NCBI GenBank assembly: GCA_029237515.1
Contig: JARBAV010000240.1
Coordinates: 1-22,083 of the forward strand
Length of the DNA stretch: 22,083 bases
Direction: 5' to 3'
From: Nitrososphaerales archaeon
GTDB taxonomy: Archaea; Thermoproteota; Nitrososphaeria; Nitrososphaerales; Nitrososphaeraceae
The position numbers and the translations under genes were made by a program. The notes under the pieces are model-generated. The model saw only the letters and a program-made list of their open reading frames with translations, was not told the origin of the DNA and searched no databases. Shown piece by piece: positions 3,962-18,689 of the stretch (positions are counted from its first letter, which is position 1; the number at the start of each line of letters is the position of its first letter).

Positions 3962-6900
3962 TTATTTATTCATGAATTCAATCAGTGTAGATTGTTCCTT
4001 CTTTTGCTCTCGAAAGATCAATTTCAATTCGGTTGATAGAGATTCTACTCTATTACGCAGGTAATCATTAATCTTGAATTCTCTACACATATAATGCGCA
4101 ATATTAAGATATTTCTCAACAGAACCTCTTGTTACTGTTTGTAATAATTCATTTTCGCATTTAAGGCAATTACCACGTAATGGAATTCTACGATATTTTT
4201 CTGCACATTTACTACATCTAAATGTCTGGGAGGAATAGGCTCTCATGTTACCCATTATATCAGGTAGGATATGTGTAGTTAGTACCATTGATACTACTTC
4301 ATCTTCATCGACTGCATTAATTAATTTTGCAGTAGATATTTGCATCTGCAACTTTTCATCCATAGTACTTAATCTAGAATATGCACTATGTTGAACATTT
4401 GTTGTTAACGATTCAGTAAAATGTGTAAACATATAGTTGAAAAATTGATCCTCTTTTCCAATCCTATTCTTTACGATCTCTATTTTGGAAGTAATATCAG
4501 CTGCTTTAGCTCTATTCCACGTGGCCTCATAGAATTCTAGAGGATAGATCGAGGATATATCCACGTTGTGTGCTTGTCGCTGCACTTCATATGGTAATAC
4601 AGTAGGCTGAATCAACAATGGAGCATCCATGAGTCCGCCAATTTTATCAGGCAAAAAATCAAAAGAAAAATTTAGAAACGCATCAAGCAGAAGCATTATG
4701 GAGTCAGCATCACCATCGCAATCTCTTCGCTTTGCTGAATGCCATATAGGAGATGCTAGGCATACTTGGGATTTTGTGAATCCGATAATTCTACCTATAA
4801 TACCAACTGATGTGTGCGGAGCAAGGCCAACAATCAAATGACCTATCAAATCTTCAATAGTGGAAATGCCATAGTAAGGTTCTAGATGATACACTTTTAC
4901 TAATTCCTCATCTACGAATTTGGCTACATTAACTAAATGTTCTGCACAATCCAGAGGTAGAACTATATCTTGCAGCAATAGTTCTATGAGCTGATCGGAT
5001 GAAGTTAGATCTCTGTCAACATAATCCTTATTATATCCTAATTTCTTAATTTTTTCAATATTGGTCATTATCCAAACTGGTTTAAAATGTGTGAGTGGTT
5101 CATTGGTTGCATCGAATCTTATCGTTCCATCTTTAAAGGCATACAACTTGTGTTTTTGTCGCAGCAGTCCCTTCTCTAATAACTCTGCCGATTTATTTTT
5201 GCTCATCAGAGCCTTGACTCCTTTAAAAGGTTCTGCAGCCTTTAAACCGAGTTTACGTTGAGCTTGCTCAATTACTTTACTCAAAGGAAAGCTAACAGGT
5301 GAATAGGGTTTGCCTTCCCTGCCGCATCTACTGCAACGATTGTTCTTACCATTATACAAGATCTCTTCTCTACATACTATACATAAATTACGAATAGGGG
5401 TAGACGATCCGCATTTAGTACATTTTGTTCCTAATGAAGGAAATTTACAACTATTACAAAATCTATTTGCGATTTCTGTAAAAAAAGATGATTTGATCTT
5501 TGAAGCCTTTAGAATATCTCTAGTAGAGCCACCTTTTGAACCTATAGGGAATAATACATGAACTGGAGGTTTCATTTTACGTTCTGCAGCCTTTTCAGGG
5601 CGGCCGACCCTTACTGCAATTGAAGAAGCAAATTTTGGCATCAATCGAATTCCAGAACTATATGAGACAAATTCTATTGTATTCAATGATTTGATATTAT
5701 CATTAGCACAGAACTGTAAACCATACCTTTCTGTAAGGGTATTAGAATTCGAAAACAGGAGTCTCTGCAAAGAGTATACCTGATTAGGATCATCTATCTT
5801 AATATGATCTTCATCTACTATTGAATGGTATACTCCAAGTCGTTCCAAAATATCTTTTAATTGAAAATTATTCTTAACCAAGAAATAGGAACATGATGCT
5901 TTATTCTTATTATTATCCTGAATATAAGAACAAATTAGGTTTTCCTTTAGGAACAATACCTCATCTATACTAATATGTTCCCAGAAAAAAGAATATCTTG
6001 GACATAATGGTATGTCTAATATCAGGCTCATTCTAAATGCGTCTTTTACATTTGGTATGTCTTTGAATGATCTGCTCATTAGTTTAATCAATTGAGGATT
6101 AATTTCTGATCTTTGCAGGTTTGAAATGGTTAAATTTGACAGATGGGAGTGTATTTCTTGAAGCCATGCCTCTTCTACGTAAGAGGCAGGAAGCAGCTCC
6201 GCATTATTTTCAAGAAAATCACCATAGCTTATAAGCATGTCACCAAGATAAAGAATTTTTTCAACTCTTTGTCGTACAACTGAGGCATGTTCAGCAGTAC
6301 TTACTTGCAAAACACTACCATCATTTAGTCGTACTATGGGTGGATCTATATCATCTACCAAAGCTATGGTTGATGCTTTGCCTGGCACGTCCATTTTTAT
6401 CTGCGTTCCTACAACTATCGCGTGATCTAAAAGAACTGGGACTGCAGGATGAATTCCAATTGTGGCGAAGCCAGTATTATAACATCTTCCATATCTTAAT
6501 CTAAATCCACCCAACCTCTTTGGCATAGAAAGTACAGGTCTGCCGGTAATAACTTCTGACATTCTGTGATTGGCCGCATCGTCACCATCGCCAGTTTGCA
6601 CCGCCCCTTTTAGATCTTTAAGCCACTCCCATCCATCAAGGTCGAGAGCTTCGACGAGTTTAAGTAATTTTCTACTTCTGCCAATAATACCATCATTCAT
6701 TACTCTTAAGGCACCCCCACGTACCCTATCGGTAGAGATGCGTTTCATGTTTCTGTGGCCTGAAACCTCTATCTGGTCGGTATCAATCCCGTCAAGCTCT
6801 ACGGGTAAACTTTTGATGCATTTAATAACATCTTCGTCTAAAACTTTGAATTGGAAATTACCTACTTCGCGTTCATAAGTACGAAGTTCTTCTACAAATC

Positions 6901-7480
6901 GACCAGTTTCATCATCATATGAGTTTGCGATGTACTCGCTTATACCAACTACCTTTCGAGCGTGATCTGCTATTAACATAGTGAGCGCCGCTTCTGTTCC
7001 TCCAGCAGACCGTATTGGGCCAGCAAATGAGATAGAAAGATAGGTACTACCATCAGAATTATTTTTAAGTTGAACATTGGAGATACCCTGCAATGGTGCC
7101 ACAGTAACACCTTCTGTGACTACAGCTAAGCTCACCCGAACAGCATTATCAAGTCGAGTTCTAAGATCTCCTGCATCATATTCTCCCAAAGCAATTTCTT
7201 CGGCAATCTTGAGTGCAGCTTTTTCTTTAGTGGTTCGTTCTAATAAGGTTCTTAGCCTACTTGCAATATCAATATCATGCATTTTTGCCACCCTATCAGC
7301 CAGATCGTATGCAATTTTAGATTCAATCGTGTTTGAAGCATCTAGACCAATTTTTCTTGCTTTCAATGCTAATTCATAAATTTGCTCGACTTTTCTAAGA
7401 ATATCTTGTTGATAATTCATGTAATAAACTGGCATATGAGTATTCCTCAGACGAGTTATACCATCGCTAGTTATCGTCAT
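3962..7480 (-). CDS. polC: DNA polymerase D large subunit DP2 (catalytic)
   Basis: Catalytic subunit of archaeal replicative polymerase D, 1172 residues. The N-terminal part contains FAGPIRSAGGTEAALTMLIA and RGGALRVMNDGIIGRSRKLL, typical of DP2. A Cys-rich zinc-binding region (CNSCKF...CTKCG...CIVC...CSRCG) lies near residues 672-720. The catalytic aspartate cluster is DCDGDAD at about 920-926, followed by LLLDAFLNFSFDFLPDKIGG and MDAPLL. A second zinc pair (CSKCAEKYRR...CLKCE) is near 1088-1108. The C-terminus carries QSTLIEFM (3971-3994), a PIP-like clamp-binding motif. There is no intein, although euryarchaeal polC often has one. The start is uncertain: Met1, Met16 and Met21 are all possible. 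The gene follows GGGP synthase by 13 bases and is probably co-transcribed; its partner DP1 is encoded separately at 11141-12736. Confidence 0.97.
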   Translation of the reverse strand: MTITSDGITRLRNTHMPVYYMNYQQDILRKVEQIYELALKARKIGLDASNTIESKIAYDLADRVAKMHDIDIASRLRTLLERTTKEKAALKIAEEIALGEYDAGDLRTRLDNAVRVSLAVVTEGVTVAPLQGISNVQLKNNSDGSTYLSISFAGPIRSAGGTEAALTMLIADHARKVVGISEYIANSYDDETGRFVEELRTYEREVGNFQFKVLDEDVIKCIKSLPVELDGIDTDQIEVSGHRNMKRISTDRVRGGALRVMNDGIIGRSRKLLKLVEALDLDGWEWLKDLKGAVQTGDGDDAANHRMSEVITGRPVLSMPKRLGGFRLRYGRCYNTGFATIGIHPAVPVLLDHAIVVGTQIKMDVPGKASTIALVDDIDPPIVRLNDGSVLQVSTAEHASVVRQRVEKILYLGDMLISYGDFLENNAELLPASYVEEAWLQEIHSHLSNLTISNLQRSEINPQLIKLMSRSFKDIPNVKDAFRMSLILDIPLCPRYSFFWEHISIDEVLFLKENLICSYIQDNNKNKASCSYFLVKNNFQLKDILERLGVYHSIVDEDHIKIDDPNQVYSLQRLLFSNSNTLTERYGLQFCANDNIKSLNTIEFVSYSSGIRLMPKFASSIAVRVGRPEKAAERKMKPPVHVLFPIGSKGGSTRDILKASKIKSSFFTEIANRFCNSCKFPSLGTKCTKCGSSTPIRNLCIVCREEILYNGKNNRCSRCGREGKPYSPVSFPLSKVIEQAQRKLGLKAAEPFKGVKALMSKNKSAELLEKGLLRQKHKLYAFKDGTIRFDATNEPLTHFKPVWIMTNIEKIKKLGYNKDYVDRDLTSSDQLIELLLQDIVLPLDCAEHLVNVAKFVDEELVKVYHLEPYYGISTIEDLIGHLIVGLAPHTSVGIIGRIIGFTKSQVCLASPIWHSAKRRDCDGDADSIMLLLDAFLNFSFDFLPDKIGGLMDAPLLIQPTVLPYEVQRQAHNVDISSIYPLEFYEATWNRAKAADITSKIEIVKNRIGKEDQFFNYMFTHFTESLTTNVQHSAYSRLSTMDEKLQMQISTAKLINAVDEDEVVSMVLTTHILPDIMGNMRAYSSQTFRCSKCAEKYRRIPLRGNCLKCENELLQTVTRGSVEKYLNIAHYMCREFKINDYLRNRVESLSTELKLIFREQKKEQSTLIEFMNK
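3971..3994 (-). other. PIP-like PCNA-binding motif at the DP2 C-terminus
   Basis: The final residues EQSTLIEFMNK contain Q-S-T-L-I-E-F-M. This matches the Q-x-x-hydrophobic-x-x-aromatic pattern of PCNA-interacting peptides, with Met in the last position where an aromatic is most common. Its place at the extreme C-terminus is where DP2 clamp-binding motifs are known in other archaea. Confidence 0.6.
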
Positions 7481-8707: not shown

Positions 8708-8739
8708 TATATCAATGATATATCACATCTAGTTGTGAT
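8708..8739. promoter_or_regulatory. Two adjacent palindromes before the membrane winged-helix gene
   Basis: TATATCA-A-TGATATA (8708-8722) is a perfect inverted repeat with a 1-base centre. It overlaps the likely TATA box, ~28 bases from the ATG at 8738. The second, ATCACA-TCTAGT-TGTGAT (8722-8739), has 6-base arms and runs into the start codon. Both are placed where a bound regulator would block transcription or translation start, so an autoregulatory operator is plausible. The palindromes are seen directly; their use is inference. Confidence 0.45.
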
Positions 8740-9388
8740 GTTTGAAGGCTATGACATGCATACCCTACTGTTGGTAGTAGTTTCTTTTTTTTCTGGAGTT
8801 GCAATAATCCTATCTTACAAGGCTATAAAGTTCTTTAGGCATAATAATAGTTCCCTAAAAAATGCAATTATTGATAACAGAATAAAACAATATGCTGACA
8901 AACTGCACGTATATGATAAAGCGATAGCAGATCTCAAAGTTAAGGTTGATATGTTAGAAATGTCAGAAAGATCTCATTCAATATCACGTGATATTGAAAG
9001 TAAAAAGGAAGACTCAGGACGTGATATTAATATGATATCACAAAATGATGTGATTATAGAAGAGTTAAGAAAGAAAACTGCACCTGCATCTATACAAACA
9101 TCTACACAAACACATACTTACTTAGATACTTTAGAGCAAATATTGTTAATGTTAAGAGAGAAACCAATGACGACGAGGCAAATTCAAGAGCGAGTCGGAA
9201 GGTCACGCGAACATACATCACGCGTAATGAAAGGATTATACAATTCAGGTTTTGTGATAAGGGATACAAATTCTAAGCCATTTAAGTATAGTATTACTGA
9301 CACAGGATTACGACAATTACGTGATTTGCATAGTGATAATGACTTGAGTGTCACAACTAGAACTGAACAGAATCTAGAACCGGTATAA
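8738..9388 (+). CDS. Membrane-anchored winged-helix (MarR-like) protein
   Basis: A 216-residue protein with three parts. Residues ~8-26 (HTLLLVVVSFFSGVAIILSY) form one hydrophobic segment near the N-terminus followed by basic residues (KAIKFFRHN), so the rest is probably cytoplasmic. Residues ~38-110 form a charged coiled-coil-like linker. Residues ~128-200 form a winged helix: LEQILLMLREKPMTTRQIQE, then VGRSREHTSRVMKGLYNSGF with the recognition helix, then a wing FKYSITDTGLRQL. The last ~15 residues are polar. It may sense a membrane signal or hold DNA at the membrane; neither is shown. ATG 8738 is preferred over GTG 8735; Met at 8756 is an alternative that leaves the hydrophobic segment intact. 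The gene borders the putative replication origin and has palindromes in and before it. Confidence 0.85.
   Translation: MFEGYDMHTLLLVVVSFFSGVAIILSYKAIKFFRHNNSSLKNAIIDNRIKQYADKLHVYDKAIADLKVKVDMLEMSERSHSISRDIESKKEDSGRDINMISQNDVIIEELRKKTAPASIQTSTQTHTYLDTLEQILLMLREKPMTTRQIQERVGRSREHTSRVMKGLYNSGFVIRDTNSKPFKYSITDTGLRQLRDLHSDNDLSVTTRTEQNLEPV
8977..8998. repeat. Perfect 22-bp palindrome inside the membrane winged-helix gene
   Basis: The left arm TTCAATATCAC (8977-8987) is followed immediately by its exact reverse complement (8988-8998). It lies in codons for the linker region. It shares the core ATATCAC/GTGATAT with sites at 8619-8627, 8653-8662 and 9021-9041. Confidence 0.7.
9021..9041. repeat. Inverted repeat GTGATAT-7-ATATCAC
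   Basis: GTGATAT at 9021-9027 and ATATCAC at 9035-9041, separated by TAATATG. It lies in the linker codons of the membrane winged-helix gene, 22 bases after the 22-bp palindrome, with the same core sequence. Confidence 0.6.
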
Positions 9389-9395
9389 AACCGGT
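9379..9395 (+). terminator. Possible GC-rich hairpin at the 3' end of the winged-helix gene
   Basis: ACCGGT (9379-9384) and ACCGGT (9390-9395), separated by ATAAA, can pair as a 6-bp stem that spans the stop codon. This is unusually GC-rich for the neighbourhood. No long T run follows directly, so a terminator role is only possible; the hexamer is self-complementary and may instead be a protein site. Confidence 0.3.
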
Positions 9396-9547
9396 CGGCA
9401 TTTGATTCCGTGAATATTGTTAACATTACCTTAAATCATAATTAACACGCTTTACTAGTTGCAACATGTTAAGAAAAAACTATGAGAAGCCAGAACTAAA
9501 TTGTTATCTCGCTGTTTGTTAATAACAAATCACAAAATGCAGTCCAG

Positions 9548-9587
9548 ATTAACTCTCCAGTGGAAATAAAGGGGTCTATTTTAAGAC
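9548..9587 (+). repeat. Origin recognition box, copy 1 of a perfect 40-bp direct repeat
   Basis: Identical over 40 bases to 9609-9648, with start-to-start spacing of 61 bases. The core is CTCCAGTGGAAATAAAGGGG followed by T. The repeat extends beyond the usual ORB into TCTATTTTAAGAC on the G-string side, so the conserved unit here is longer than a mini-ORB. Confidence 0.88.
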
Positions 9588-9608
9588 ATTAACAATGTTA
9601 AAGATGTT

Positions 9609-9648
9609 ATTAACTCTCCAGTGGAAATAAAGGGGTCTATTTTAAGAC
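9609..9648 (+). repeat. Origin recognition box, copy 2 of a perfect 40-bp direct repeat
   Basis: Exact copy of 9548-9587 in the same orientation. The identity ends sharply at both sides (T/G before, G/A after), and the 21-base spacer holds the palindrome at 9589-9601. The 61-base period is about six helical turns, so two Orc1 molecules would sit on nearly the same face of the DNA. Confidence 0.88.
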
Positions 9649-9715
9649 GTTTTAGGTTAGTGAAATACGATTGTAAACCAAAGTTAACATACAGTTGAAT
9701 AATGTATTAACCCCC

Positions 9716-9736
9716 ACCCCTTGATTTCTTTTGCAG
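9716..9736 (-). repeat. Inverted ORB-like box
   Basis: The minus-strand sequence matches the 21-base ORB core of the perfect repeats at 16 of 21 positions by hand alignment, including the entire GGGGT and GAAAT blocks. Its orientation is opposite to the two perfect copies, so it would close the far side of an unwinding region. Confidence 0.6.
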
Positions 9737-9865
9737 TCCATATCTCATTATCTATTATTTCTATTGAAATATAGTTAAGCTAAAAATTAACAATAATTGA
9801 TTCTCTTGTTTAAAACTGTTTGTTAACTTGTTGTTAACACCTATTGGTTTAGTATCCTTCTTATG

Positions 9866-9886
9866 TTGGAAAGGAAAAACAGGGGT
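9866..9886 (+). repeat. Weak direct ORB-like box near the orc1 promoter
   Basis: Matches the ORB core at 14 of 21 positions by hand, with GGAAA and AGGGGT intact. It ends just before the orc1 TATA-like element at 9891-9899. If Orc1 binds here it could regulate its own promoter. Confidence 0.35.
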
Positions 9887-9890
9887 GAGG

Positions 9891-9899
9891 GTATATTAC
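9891..9899 (+). promoter_or_regulatory. TATA-like element of orc1/cdc6
   Basis: gtatattac lies about 30 bases before the TTG start at 9925. The ATGs at 9906, 9912 and 9929 are all out of the orc1 frame, and an in-frame stop lies at 9916-9918. The spacing therefore supports TTG as the real start. Confidence 0.5.
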
Positions 9900-9924
9900 A
9901 TGATAATGGGAATGATAAATAAAT

Positions 9925-11151
9925 TTGAATGATGATAGCCTTGATAGTATATTTGATAAAGCGGCTTCAGGGACGTCGCTAGTCGTCAAAGATAGAAGAA
10001 CATTAACTATAGACTATGTGCCCGACCGCCTTCCATTTAGGGATGAAGAAAGTAAGACTATTGCACATACTTTATCTATTATTTTGAAAGGATCCAGGCC
10101 ATCTAATTTATTACTTTTTGGGAAACCGGGAACAGGAAAAACTGCCGTGGTTAAGAATGTCTTACATCGACTTTCTGTTAAGGGCGAGGAATTAGGAATA
10201 GAATTAACGGTGCCATTTGTAAACGCAAAGAGTGCTAATACAGCATATAAGGTCTTACATGAAATTGCTGAAAAAATGGGTATCAATAAAGGAGAAAAAA
10301 AATTACAGGTCCATTTTACGGGCTTATCAATGGGTGAGGCGACTGATAGAATATTAGAATTTATTCAAAGAAGGAAAAAACTTTATGTGATTCTTGTCAT
10401 AGATGAAATTGATTCACTGGTAGAAAAGAATGGGGATGATATACTTTATAATTTTACTAGGGCTAACGAGAGAATATCAACTGAATCATTTATCAGCCTA
10501 ATAGGAATATCTAATAGTCTAACATTTAAGGATAAACTTGATCCTAGAGTTAGGAGTAGTCTCAGCGAAGAAGAGTTGGTGTTCAATCCATATACTATAG
10601 AACAACTGCAAAGAATCCTTGCAGAAAGAACATTGTTAGCATTTAATGAAGACGTAGTTTCAAGTGCGGCTATTAATCTTTGTGCAGCTATGGCCGGTAG
10701 AGAGCATGGAGATGCCAGAAAGGCGATCGACCTTTTAAGAGTAGCAGCTGAAATTGCAGAAATAGAAAGAACAAATAAAGTTGAAGAAAAACATATTAGA
10801 TTAGCACAAGAAAAAATTGAAAAAGATACAAATTATGAAGTTTTGAGAAATTCAACAACACATACTAAAATGATAATGTTAGCAGTATTGAAATCAAGAA
10901 ACGGTAACACTGGGGAAGTATATGAAATATACTCAGATATATGTAGACGTATTGAGCAAGAACCATTAACCCAACGTCGAATAACCCAAATAATGAGTGA
11001 GTTAGATCAATTGGGCCTAATAACTAGTGATGTAATAAGTCAAGGAAGATATGGTAGATCTCAAAAAATTAGGATCACTGTACCACATTCAACTGTGAAG
11101 GAAGCCTTGAAAGAGGATTCTATTCTCGCAGGGGTACTATCTATTGACTAA
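9925..11151 (+). CDS. cdc6: Orc1/Cdc6 replication initiator
   Basis: AAA+ initiator that binds ORBs and loads the MCM helicase; 408 residues, normal for the family. Walker A is GKPGTGKT (66-73) and Walker B VIDEID (158-163). Sensor 1 is around IGISN (193-197), an arginine-finger region is DPRVRSSL (207 onward), and sensor 2 is GDARKAIDLLR with Arg265. The C-terminal winged helix (about 310-395) has recognition helix LTQRRITQIMSELDQLGLI and wing GRYGRSQKIRITV. The start is TTG at 9925: an in-frame stop lies just upstream, no in-frame ATG or GTG is near, and the TATA-like box is ~30 bases away. It follows the putative origin directly. The 3' end overlaps the 3' end of the DP1 gene on the other strand by 11 bases. 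Confidence 0.96.
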   Translation: MNDDSLDSIFDKAASGTSLVVKDRRTLTIDYVPDRLPFRDEESKTIAHTLSIILKGSRPSNLLLFGKPGTGKTAVVKNVLHRLSVKGEELGIELTVPFVNAKSANTAYKVLHEIAEKMGINKGEKKLQVHFTGLSMGEATDRILEFIQRRKKLYVILVIDEIDSLVEKNGDDILYNFTRANERISTESFISLIGISNSLTFKDKLDPRVRSSLSEEELVFNPYTIEQLQRILAERTLLAFNEDVVSSAAINLCAAMAGREHGDARKAIDLLRVAAEIAEIERTNKVEEKHIRLAQEKIEKDTNYEVLRNSTTHTKMIMLAVLKSRNGNTGEVYEIYSDICRRIEQEPLTQRRITQIMSELDQLGLITSDVISQGRYGRSQKIRITVPHSTVKEALKEDSILAGVLSID

Positions 11152-12736
11152 AGTTCATTATGAATGGTTGAAGTGTAGACAGATCAACTATAACTGCAAC
11201 TCCAGGATTAGGTATAATGCCCATCGTTCTTTGAAAGTTTGTCTGTCCTTGCCAAGTTCCAGAATTTACTATTAGTGTTCCACGGTAATTTTGAGCATCA
11301 AGAACATGTATGTGCCCTGAATGAAATATGTCTGGAACTTCAGTAATTACCATGTGGTCTTCTTGTTCGGGGGCAATAGGAGTACGTTCTCCATAAATAG
11401 GAGAAAGATGCCTTGCTCTCAATAATACTTTCATTGCTTCTGCAGGCTTAGCATAACTTAGATCAGGGATCGTACCTATGATGTCATCTAGACCCTGTCC
11501 GTGGTACATTAGTATCTTTACGCCATTCAATTCGATCAAACTGGGATTTCCAAGCATTTTGAAATTTTGAAATGTGTAAAGTTTTTCAGAGCTTTGCCTA
11601 GGAATAGAAGGTTGTGGCAATGCTCTTCGACCCGGATCATGGTTTCCAGGAATAACAAAAACATTAATGTGCTTAGGTATACGTGAGAGTAAGTCCATTA
11701 CATGTGACATCTGACTATTAATATTTAATTCAAGTAATTCTTTGTCTTGATTAGGGAATATTCCGATGCCATCTATTAAATCACCACCAATACATAGAAA
11801 TTTGATTTTCCTTACAATTTCATCGTCAGTTGATGATATCCAATTCAAAAATTTCATAAATGCGGTTTCCATGAAATATTTACTTCCTACATGTAAGTCT
11901 GAGATTAATACCACATAGGATTCAGATTTGGCTCTGTTTGGTAAATGATCTGGAATATCAGGTGATATTATATTTTTTATAACGAAATTTTGGCTTTTCC
12001 TACCGTTCTCTAATTCTAGCATAACCATTTGATCTGTGGTAATCAACGATCCCTGTTTTTTTATATCCTCAGTCGTACCCATCACATGTAAATCTCCACT
12101 AAAATCATCTATCACTATTTCTAATCCATGACGCTTGAATTGTCTTGACATAACCAAACCAGCTACAACCATTGTTGAGGATAATCCCGAAATTTGTTCA
12201 TATTGCATGTATGGTTTATGATTTCCAGTATCTGTCTTCTTTTTCTTCAGAGTTTTTACTCTTGTGATTCGTCTACTATCAGGACGTAAGGACAAGATGT
12301 GCATAGATTTTTCATATCTGCTTCTAAATAGTGAAGTATACCCTTCAACTCCTTCTCCACTATTAATTATGGGAGTTGGATCTAAGAGTACTCTGTATGA
12401 TACTGGTTCTGATGTATCACTATTGCGTAGATGTAATAAATCTAATGATGATGATGATGAAGATGATAAAGACTTACCATAAGAACTGTTTTGAATTTGG
12501 TTTTGAGATTCTCCATTTTTAGAATGTTTATCAACGACCATTTTTATATCTTCTACCAGAATTATAGAATTATCTTTGCTAGCTACCTTGGCTTTGATAA
12601 TGTCTTGAATGATCCTTAAAATATCTATATCAAGCCCTTTGAGCATTTCAAAAGCGTCAGGATGTATCTGATATCCTTTACTAATTGCAAAACATAGGGC
12701 ATTGGATATTTCTGTTCCGAAATCCAAATTGTCCAC
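11141..12736 (-). CDS. polB: DNA polymerase D small subunit DP1 (3'-5' exonuclease)
   Basis: Proofreading subunit of polymerase D, 531 residues. The N-terminal ~110 residues include a polar, Ser-rich linker (SSYGKSLSSSSSSSLDLLHL). An OB-fold region follows (~170-260), then a calcineurin-like, Mre11-type phosphoesterase domain. All its metal-binding motifs are present: VLISDLHVGS (~280), CIGGDLIDG (~310), FVIPGNHD (~365), MYHGQGLDD (~405) and HSGHIHVLD (~472). The exonuclease therefore looks active. The start is GTG at 12736, supported by the AT-rich box ATTAAATATT about 26 bases upstream on the minus strand. The gene runs toward orc1 and overlaps its end by 11 bases. It is not adjacent to polC, unlike the clustered pair in Pyrococcus, but the two lie within 9 kb. 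Confidence 0.96.
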   Translation of the reverse strand: MDNLDFGTEISNALCFAISKGYQIHPDAFEMLKGLDIDILRIIQDIIKAKVASKDNSIILVEDIKMVVDKHSKNGESQNQIQNSSYGKSLSSSSSSSLDLLHLRNSDTSEPVSYRVLLDPTPIINSGEGVEGYTSLFRSRYEKSMHILSLRPDSRRITRVKTLKKKKTDTGNHKPYMQYEQISGLSSTMVVAGLVMSRQFKRHGLEIVIDDFSGDLHVMGTTEDIKKQGSLITTDQMVMLELENGRKSQNFVIKNIISPDIPDHLPNRAKSESYVVLISDLHVGSKYFMETAFMKFLNWISSTDDEIVRKIKFLCIGGDLIDGIGIFPNQDKELLELNINSQMSHVMDLLSRIPKHINVFVIPGNHDPGRRALPQPSIPRQSSEKLYTFQNFKMLGNPSLIELNGVKILMYHGQGLDDIIGTIPDLSYAKPAEAMKVLLRARHLSPIYGERTPIAPEQEDHMVITEVPDIFHSGHIHVLDAQNYRGTLIVNSGTWQGQTNFQRTMGIIPNPGVAVIVDLSTLQPFIMNFSQ

Positions 12737-14523: not shown

Positions 14524-15369
14524 ATGAGTGAAGTAAAGTTAGAATTTATTGGTAAACAGGTTAAGGATATGTACGGAACCTACATGGGAAAAGTTATTGG
14601 TATGGTAACAGATATTGATGGTTCTATAGAATCCGTTAGTGTAGATTGCGGTTATGCAGGATTAAAGCAATTAGTGTACGAGCAATTATTAGTACAGGGT
14701 GATTATGTAATTTTTATTCCAAAATGGAGATTGGATGTACAGAAGTTACTTAGGCAGAAAAACCTTGTATTACAAAGGATCAAAGCGTTACAGGAGATGG
14801 TTACGGCTAATGATTTGATGAGAGAGGACGTTGAATTGGTGTATATAAAGTACCAGAAGAGATTGCAAGACCTTGAGGATAAAGGAAAAATAGTTCTGGG
14901 ACAACTGCAAGAAAGACTGAATCAGATAGATGCGGAAAGCCAGAATATAAAATCGGTACTATTTGACGCAAAGTTACAGTATAGAAGCAATGAGATCACC
15001 GAAGAAACATTTCAACAAATTAGTTTGTCTACCAATGACCTAATAGAGCATGTTAACTTAGAAAAAGGAGAGATTAATAACGTCATATCTAGATTAAGTC
15101 AACAGACATTTGAGAGGATGGATTTGAATTCAGTACAAAATCCCTTATCAGACCAACCAAAATCCAACTCCAGCCTTGAATCAAATTCACAGTCTCCTGG
15201 AGGTGACATTCCTGTTACAGGGCCTCAAGCAGTTGGTGCGGCTGCAGCGGCAGACAATGATTATAATAATGATAATGATGACGATCATCCTAAGACTATT
15301 CGCAAGGAAACTACTACTGAGGACGAGGCTGAAACTAGTTGGCTTAACCAGGTTCTACAACACGATTAA
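14524..15369 (+). CDS. cdvA: Cell division protein CdvA
   Basis: DNA/membrane-associated scaffold of the archaeal ESCRT division machinery, which in Crenarchaeota recruits CdvB. The 281 residues divide as follows: an N-terminal PRC-barrel-like domain (~1-75: KLEFIGKQVKDMYGTYMGKV, then VTDIDGSIESVSVDCG); a long coiled coil (~78-200, e.g. KNLVLQRIKALQEMVTANDL, YIKYQKRLQDLEDKGKIVL); and a low-complexity acidic tail (~205-275) with DNDYNNDNDDD. It ends with a short hydrophobic peptide SWLNQVLQHD, where a CdvB-binding element would be expected. The domain order matches thaumarchaeal CdvA. No cdvB or cdvC is nearby, which is usual for this phylum. ATG 14524 has a TATA-like box ~24 bases upstream. 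An AT-rich convergent terminator region follows. Confidence 0.9.
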   Translation: MSEVKLEFIGKQVKDMYGTYMGKVIGMVTDIDGSIESVSVDCGYAGLKQLVYEQLLVQGDYVIFIPKWRLDVQKLLRQKNLVLQRIKALQEMVTANDLMREDVELVYIKYQKRLQDLEDKGKIVLGQLQERLNQIDAESQNIKSVLFDAKLQYRSNEITEETFQQISLSTNDLIEHVNLEKGEINNVISRLSQQTFERMDLNSVQNPLSDQPKSNSSLESNSQSPGGDIPVTGPQAVGAAAAADNDYNNDNDDDHPKTIRKETTTEDEAETSWLNQVLQHD

Positions 15370-17936: not shown

Positions 17937-18689
17937 CTAGCTAGACTCTGTTTCATGCCCATGCCCTTCTTTGATAGCATATTTCTTGTACGCGGAAATT
18001 AACCAGTCTATATCAGAGTCAGTTTCTTCGTGCTTTGCCATCTTGCCAATCTTTAGGACGTCTCGTATATCCTTGCTATTCAGCTCATTCCATACCTTAT
18101 CTGCAACTTTTGAAGCTGTCCTAGCTTCAATTTTATACCTTTCATTAAGTAACTTTGTCGAGATCTTGACAAACTCTTCATATTTGTATTCTGGGAGATA
18201 AAATATTAAGAATCTTGATTTTAATGGTTTTGAAAGATCATTTAAACTATTCGAGGTTGCAAATATATGTAGGCTCATCTCCAGTTGTCTGGTTTTCCTG
18301 ACCTTTGTAGAACTAAGAATGCCAGTTTCCATTATGTTTAGTAAGGCGACTTGATCACTTTTCTTCATCTTATCTATTTCATCAATCAGCAAATATTTTG
18401 TTGATGGATGCTCAAACAAGTAATCAACCATACCTACTCCACTAGTTCCTGTGCCATCTGTAAAGTAACTATTGTCTAATCCTTTCATCATTTGTAGGAG
18501 AAATATCGTCTTGCTTGAGGCAGGCGGACCAGTTAGGAGAATATGTGAAGACTCCTTGCTAATTATTGATCTCATGAATAGCTTCTTAAGATCAGAGTAT
18601 CCTACTATACCAGAGAAGAATTTTTCTTCTGGGGGTAGAATATCTACTTCATGCTCGATGCCTAACCTTTTGAATAGAGTCTTAAACAC
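17937..18689 (-). CDS. AAA+ ATPase with MCM-like features
   Basis: 250-residue single AAA+ module of unknown role. Walker A is GPPASSKT (54-61), with Ser in place of the usual Gly before Lys. Walker B is LLIDEIDKM (100-108). The segment after it (SDQVALLNIMETGILSSTKV, then RKTRQLEMSL) resembles the helix-2 insert of MCM/MoxR-type ATPases. Sensor 1 is IFATSN (Asn147), with SRF (Arg159) as a possible arginine finger. The C-terminal ~70 residues are helical (lid). The start is given as GTG at 18689, the only usual start. The frame stays open upstream to a stop at 18792 and would add a plausible-looking sequence (ENSINDLYQDLIYYKPFLHK), so the true start may be a rare codon further up. Convergent with acs; rad50 lies 940 bases upstream on the same strand. 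Confidence 0.8.
   Translation of the reverse strand: MFKTLFKRLGIEHEVDILPPEEKFFSGIVGYSDLKKLFMRSIISKESSHILLTGPPASSKTIFLLQMMKGLDNSYFTDGTGTSGVGMVDYLFEHPSTKYLLIDEIDKMKKSDQVALLNIMETGILSSTKVRKTRQLEMSLHIFATSNSLNDLSKPLKSRFLIFYLPEYKYEEFVKISTKLLNERYKIEARTASKVADKVWNELNSKDIRDVLKIGKMAKHEETDSDIDWLISAYKKYAIKEGHGHETESS

Follow-up and report, generated by a model that had tools for sequence, protein, structure and literature searches.

A 22,083-nucleotide contig of a Nitrososphaeraceae MAG, called the window throughout, very probably carries a chromosomal replication origin that is linked to cdc6 and belongs to the Orc1/Cdc6-ORB (oriC1) kind. This reading is strongly supported by a box architecture that is kept upstream of cdc6 in relatives, by strict ORB sites that occur almost only there and by an initiator of the Orc1 type. 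Judged from the sequence and from comparison with relatives, the layout of the locus is ORB1> - palindrome - ORB2> - <ORB3 - AT-rich region with TTGATT-N5-GTTTAAA - ORB4> - cdc6. We propose that Cdc6 from the adjacent gene would bind the two strong direct boxes, 61 bp apart, as well as the degenerate, inverted pair that brackets the AT-rich region, that it would load MCM at the origin and that the AT-rich region would melt. Further proteins probably bind the GTTAA palindrome and the unwinding-region element, and a membrane-anchored winged-helix neighbour and an HTH_45 regulator are candidates. Origins of this kind are known; as far as the accessible text of the literature searched shows, the layout typical of the family seems to have gone undescribed, as do its additional motifs, the concerted repeat and the conserved neighbour with a membrane anchor. 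Ammonia-oxidising archaea are both abundant and difficult to cultivate, and the conserved architecture gives binding and plasmid-replication assays a definite stretch of DNA to address. What is of interest in the locus is its non-ORB layer.

Gene content of the window and the initiator

The assembly to which the window belongs comprises 2,338,188 bases in 511 contigs. The features of the window are as follows.

3962..7480, minus strand: PolD large subunit gene (TIGR00354 and NF003103 above cut-off)
8735..9388, plus strand: gene of the predicted membrane-anchored winged-helix protein; it lies upstream of the origin and cdc6 and has the same orientation
9548..9587, plus strand: repeat copy 1 of the exact 40-bp repeat, with the ORB1 box at 9556-9575
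9589..9601, no strand: palindrome TTAACAATGTTAA, midway between ORB1 and ORB2, exact in the window
9609..9648, plus strand: repeat copy 2, with the ORB2 box at 9617-9636
9716..9735, minus strand: ORB3, opposed degenerate box (15/20 to the window box)
9736..9866, no strand: putative duplex-unwinding element between ORB3 and ORB4
9797..9814, plus strand: element TTGATT-N5-GTTTAAA, inside the unwinding region
9867..9886, plus strand: ORB4, degenerate box (14/20), inverted relative to ORB3, just before cdc6
9925..11151, plus strand: cdc6/orc1 initiator gene (TTG start; TIGR02928; Cdc6_C and Cdc6_lid)
11141..12736, minus strand: PolD small subunit gene (NF003118 above cut-off), convergent with cdc6

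The cdc6 product scored 371.9 bits against TIGR02928 (cut-off 181.3). Its nearest solved structure was 2v1u (E 3.9e-95), and the alignment to the Cdc6/Orc1 chains 2v1u and 2qby_A covered nearly the whole length. The adjacent orc1/cdc6 gene is predicted from its sequence to be of the ORB-binding type, and it is accompanied by multiple ORB motifs with dyad and G-string, four boxes in number. An initiator gene right after the origin had been claimed in an earlier note on this DNA, and cdc6 does start 38 bp past the end of ORB4. A second, distant Cdc6 paralogue (29-36% identity) was observed elsewhere in G027, G032, G015, G007, G057 and G080.

To the left of the origin lie genes for the PolD large subunit, geranylgeranylglyceryl phosphate synthase and part of FEN-1. 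Replication and cell-division genes are grouped around the origin, the cluster holding FEN-1 (part), both PolD subunits and cdc6 together with an MCM-P-loop-like AAA protein (17937-18689) and a CdvA-like gene (14524-15369). Searches of the window with Rfam at the gathering threshold and with a tRNA scan gave no matches.

A direct pair of ORBs is conserved upstream of cdc6

The locus had drawn attention through two exact 40-base copies, at 9548-9587 and 9609-9648, and these coordinates hold. The direct repeat is exact over 40 bp, reaches 43 bp with one mismatch and has a start-to-start distance of 61. The origin recognition box pattern reported in both copies was located in each as the box TCCAGTGGAAATAAAGGGGT (9556-9575 and 9617-9636). 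A search of the organism's own 2.34-Mb, 78.8% complete assembly with the 20-base ORB pattern CTCCAGTGGAAATAAAGGGG (at most 3 mismatches) returned only the ORB1 and ORB2 sites, and the reversed control of this pattern returned one site. The box also fits the part of a published Methanomicrobia ORB motif that was available to us (TCCA[GC]T[GT]GAAA[CT][AG]A; PMC4164010), a comparison independent of the window-derived scoring used below.

The earlier note had proposed looking for the 40-base unit upstream of cdc6 in related genomes. What is kept there is the ORB pair itself, found in 41/41 usable family loci (40 genomes) with the boxes 60-62 bp apart, 28 of them at 61. The search called for two boxes of at least 15/20 and allowed a spacing of 58-65 bp, the box used for scoring having come from the window itself. 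Since the pair occupies a conserved position in all 41 loci, chance is excluded. A cdc6 match was obtained in 70 of 81 genomes; 49 genomes belonged to the family, of which 40 were usable and gave 41 loci, G038 having two that were both counted. Nine family genomes were dropped: G006, G012, G020 and G045 had no cdc6 match, cdc6 was broken or partial in G019, G035 and G036, and in G004 and G025 the contig ended within about 110 bp of cdc6. The two loci of G038 (C53 and C60) carry different cdc6 genes in one assembly, one resembling other genera, and contamination is possible.

The strict pattern TCCANTGGAAAYNNNGGGGT matched in 51/81 genomes, with one match for the reversed control. Apart from the sites on three contigs in which cdc6 had no match (G002:C291, G006:C335 and G062:C101), which adjoin a homologue of the membrane-anchored gene, its matches are located upstream of a cdc6 match at a distance of no more than 1.7 kb. 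Within the G002 assembly an ORB pair together with the membrane-anchored gene occurs on both C246 and C291, and these contigs probably represent mixed strains in the MAG.

Outside the family, under looser criteria and without a control, a box pair at 38-66 bp was found in 17/18 cdc6 loci, these loci being part of the 25 other-family genomes with a cdc6 match; G060 had no box pair at its cdc6 locus by the same criteria. In some of these genomes the pair lies far from cdc6. A 317-codon frame stands between them in G051 and a 167-codon frame in G054, and the distance is 1677 bp in G077 and 865 bp in G068, which suggests that the strong pair and the cdc6-proximal region are separable modules. Three genomes of family f2 (G049, G065 and G076) have three direct boxes with ends GGTGT instead of GGGGT, and the change from GGGGT to GGTGT was observed at the origin loci of families f2 and f3 (the same three genomes and G050).

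The bases past the G-string vary between species

The 13 bases past the G-string, equally conserved in the two copies of the window, had been taken to suggest a lineage-specific ORB extension. They correspond to offsets 19-31 from the box start, the first of them (T) belonging to GGGGT, and we tested offsets 20-32 in both copies (26 values). As a recognition element the extension did not hold up: only the first T is conserved, and the 13 positions after it have an information content of 0-1.1 bits, with 21 of the 26 values at 0.4 or below and the others reflecting a weak preference for A/T at offsets 22-24. Conservation of the stretch across the lineage was not found among these loci; it varies even within a genus, and both copies change together.

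Identity of the extension stretch was 0.61 within a genome against 0.35-0.37 between genomes. In genera g1, g2 and g11, which were grouped apart only after the data had been inspected, identity between paralogous copies exceeded that between orthologous ones in 42/44 species pairs, with 2 ties, and in the variable columns the two copies agreed in 19/20 (g1), 48/48 (g2) and 53/60 (g11) cells. With a 19-base stretch the effect was gone in g1 (1/6 pairs) and kept in g2 (27/28) and g11 (9/10). For g6, g8 and g12 the paralogous identity was the higher in 17/52 pairs, with 29 below and 6 ties. We consider the 40-bp identity best explained by concerted evolution, and not by a longer conserved recognition sequence; recombination or slippage between the direct repeats would leave the copies equal while species differ, as in g1, g2 and g11. 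Selection for equality is a possible alternative cause of equal copies.

Two other explanations of the shared flank bear on the same data. A true extended, lineage-specific recognition sequence co-evolving with Cdc6 would agree with copies that match fully or almost fully in g1, g2 and mostly g11, with the conserved first T and with the A/T preference, but it is hard to reconcile with the low information of most columns, with extensions that differ between same-genus species whose Cdc6 proteins are 95-96% identical, and with copies within one genome that share little in g8 and g4 and 0.23-0.69 in g12; we regard it as improbable. A very recent duplication of the pair, its identity reflecting youth and not homogenisation, would account for the exact 40 bp in the window. 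The pair with its spacing is nevertheless present in all 41 family loci, and a pair in 17/18 loci of other families, indicating that the two boxes are ancestral, and the shared tract differs among species, so that such a duplication is very improbable. Haloarchaeal oriC1 with extended G-string ORBs has, in the descriptions available to us, an added element common to the lineage, whereas here the bases past GGGGT differ among species. If concerted evolution of paired initiator sites is true, origin boxes and their flanks can be rewritten in step, which bears on the co-evolution of initiator and origin.

Degenerate inverted boxes flank the putative unwinding region

The opposed box and the weak fourth box described in the earlier note (9716-9736 and 9866-9886) were both found, with coordinates within one base. 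ORB3 reached at least 13/20 on the minus strand in 39/41 family loci (base shuffles give a mean of 0.47) and ORB4 at least 13/20 on the plus strand in 40/41 (mean 0.70). Both retain GAAA and GGGGT, the TCCA half being mostly lost, and they are mutually inverted with their dyad halves facing AT-rich DNA. In 39/41 family loci the midpoint of the 40-mer with the lowest stability in the origin falls between ORB3 and ORB4. The conserved position and orientation around the least stable DNA indicate that the third and fourth boxes are not accidents. Of the AT-rich tract noted earlier, the presence was upheld and the placement was revised, the most AT-rich part of the window origin (9749-9788, AT 0.85) lying between the opposed and the fourth box.

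The putative unwinding region contains a further motif, TTGATT-N5-GTTTAAA, the pattern having been picked after the alignment had been viewed. A relaxed form occurred in 39/41 family loci, compared with 6.8% of dinucleotide shuffles. The exact form has a single site in the window organism's genome, at 9797-9814, and in some family genomes it also occurs off-origin (for example, 6/7 copies in G014). Among 18 loci outside the family TTGATT was found with GTTTAAA in G076 only, and the relaxed pattern in 5/18 over 1800 bp; we treat the element as family-specific on these counts. It may be part of the cdc6 promoter.

This arrangement resembles Sulfolobus oriC1 (Orc1-1, ORB1-3) as described in the available part of PMC12141716, where inverted ORB2 and ORB3 surround an unwinding element that contains the ucm motif, needed for firing and bound by UBP. 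Both origins have ORB sites beside the gene of an Orc1-type initiator, and in both inverted ORBs, a trait of oriC1-type origins found here in 39/41 loci, border an unwinding region that is AT-rich and contains another conserved motif. Unlike in Sulfolobus, the strongest boxes here are two direct copies at a constant spacing of 61 bp that lie outside the unwinding region, and the boxes flanking that region are degenerate. A conserved motif occupies the place of ucm in 39/41 family loci with a different sequence, and the extra motifs look different when compared by eye with the ucm oligonucleotide in the accessible text. According to that text, Desulfurococcales and Sulfolobales acquired the ubp gene relatively recently, and the authors of the ucm/UBP work raise the question of whether analogous origin proteins exist in more divergent archaea (PMC12141716). 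The palindrome, the unwinding-region element and the membrane-anchored neighbour described here are concrete candidates for such sites and proteins.

Nitrosopumilus maritimus belongs to the same phylum as the window organism. A single origin has been mapped in it (PMC4010727; PMC5333045, excerpts) and has been the reference when an origin was assigned to ORB repeats that precede cdc; the genome of Ca. Nitrosocaldus cavascurensis was oriented at such repeats, and the passages available on its predicted origin give no box-level anatomy (PMC5797428). The f2 loci, with their three direct GGTGT boxes, differ from the window and are not equated with N. maritimus. Literature searches for ORBs together with Nitrososphaera or Thaumarchaeota found no box-level account of a Nitrososphaeraceae origin in the text accessible.

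Nucleotide skew and the position of the origin

The earlier note expected an extremum of GC skew at this locus. As the window organism's genome is in 511 contigs, skew was analysed in four closed relatives (G005, G027, G049 and G032) using 20 stretches of 20 kb each. The outcome was divided. Contrast in third-codon-position AT (AT3) skew at cdc6 was present in all four (p = 0.0001 in G005, 0.040 in G027, 0.0065 in G049 and 0.024 in G032), these p values being optimistic since the permutation ignores autocorrelation and neighbouring stretches are not independent. The cdc6 split ranked 1, 1, 3 and 5 among 10, respectively, and the sign in G049 was opposite. Raw AT skew was significant in G005 only. 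GC skew at cdc6 gave no signal by either measure in three of the four relatives, the exception being GC3 skew in G032 (p = 0.0013, rank 2). AT3 skew favours an origin near cdc6 in G005 and G027; in G049 and G032 the support is weak.

These data bear on whether the boxes could be operators of cdc6 only, serving autoregulation while replication starts elsewhere. In the window 38 bp separate the end of ORB4 from the cdc6 start, and in most family loci the box is near cdc6, so Cdc6 may control its own gene too. However, ORB1 begins 369 bp and ORB2 308 bp upstream of cdc6, on the far side of the AT-rich tract, and they are conserved in G051 and G054 despite the reading frames that separate them from cdc6. 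The inverted-box and AT-rich layout matches that of Sulfolobus oriC1 in the available description (PMC12141716), and the AT3-skew contrast falls at cdc6. Operators alone are very unlikely on this evidence, and we retain the reading of the locus as an origin.

A GTTAA palindrome lies between the direct boxes

The palindrome TTAACAnTGTTAA is conserved midway between ORB1 and ORB2. At least 9 of its 10 half-site bases were found in 30/41 family loci (all 10 in 19), compared with 1.7% of base shuffles, and the origins average 10.05 occurrences of GTTAA/TTAAC where dinucleotide shuffles give 2.1 (totals of 412 and 87.1 over 41 loci). Outside the family the palindrome was present at 4/17 loci with a box pair. 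In the window organism's genome it occurred at 2 places, compared with 3 for the reversed control, and among the matches listed across 81 genomes the picture was mixed and not clearly above that control, giving no sign of a large regulon.

When 20 stretches around palindromes were examined, the frame of an HTH_45 regulator adjoined in three (L211, L212 and L213). In 30 HTH_45 loci taken from more than 100 matches, a palindrome (at least 9/10) lay at most 250 bp upstream in 12 and downstream in none, compared with 1.8% in shuffles; three of the 12 positives are the discovery loci, and without them the count is 9/27. Loci with origin-like palindromes upstream include L213:1867-2229, L252 and L258. 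The best-matching HTH_45 copy of the window organism's genome (L250) is without the palindrome. Its presence upstream of HTH_45 genes makes this regulator a rival candidate for the binder, and it may be the protein that recognises the palindrome.

A membrane-anchored winged-helix neighbour accompanies the origin

The product of 8735-9388 has a transmembrane-like helix at its N terminus along with a long helix and a winged helix, and it matched PF01978 with 29.4 bits (cut-off 25.6). In a structural model a helix spans residues 8-90 and the winged helix about 121-210, with pLDDT of about 90 in most of the latter; because overall confidence was low (pTM 0.36), only the fold class was used. The nearest solved folds in a structure search were MarR/ArsR-like winged helices. 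Where the neighbour genes have names, these are mostly predicted transcriptional regulator or helix-turn-helix protein.

A homologue was found upstream of cdc6, on the same strand and within 3.6 kb, at 60/68 cdc6 loci from 14 families. The transmembrane-like N terminus was present in 56/60, the frames of the other four starting at the edge of the available DNA. Among the eight loci without a homologue, four have less than 260 bp of upstream DNA, and in G065 and G076 the gene lies just beyond the stretch examined. G013 has the gene on another contig, and none was found for the second G038 locus. This constancy of position makes the neighbour a candidate for a protein linked with the origin.

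One may go further and suppose that a second, non-ORB control system operates at the origins of Nitrososphaerota, with GTTAA half-sites, which form the palindrome fixed between the two strong ORBs and recur through the origin, bound by a winged-helix dimer and the membrane-anchored neighbour of the 14 families tethering or gating the origin at the membrane. We hold this proposal to be rather unlikely as a whole. Such a tether would be a counterpart of UBP or of membrane-linked initiation control in role, not by descent.

In other families (G058, G070, G079, G051 and G054) a minus-strand frame of about 128-164 codons, absent from the window, was observed between the membrane-anchored gene and the origin, and by eye these frames probably form one related family, perhaps of DNA-binding proteins.
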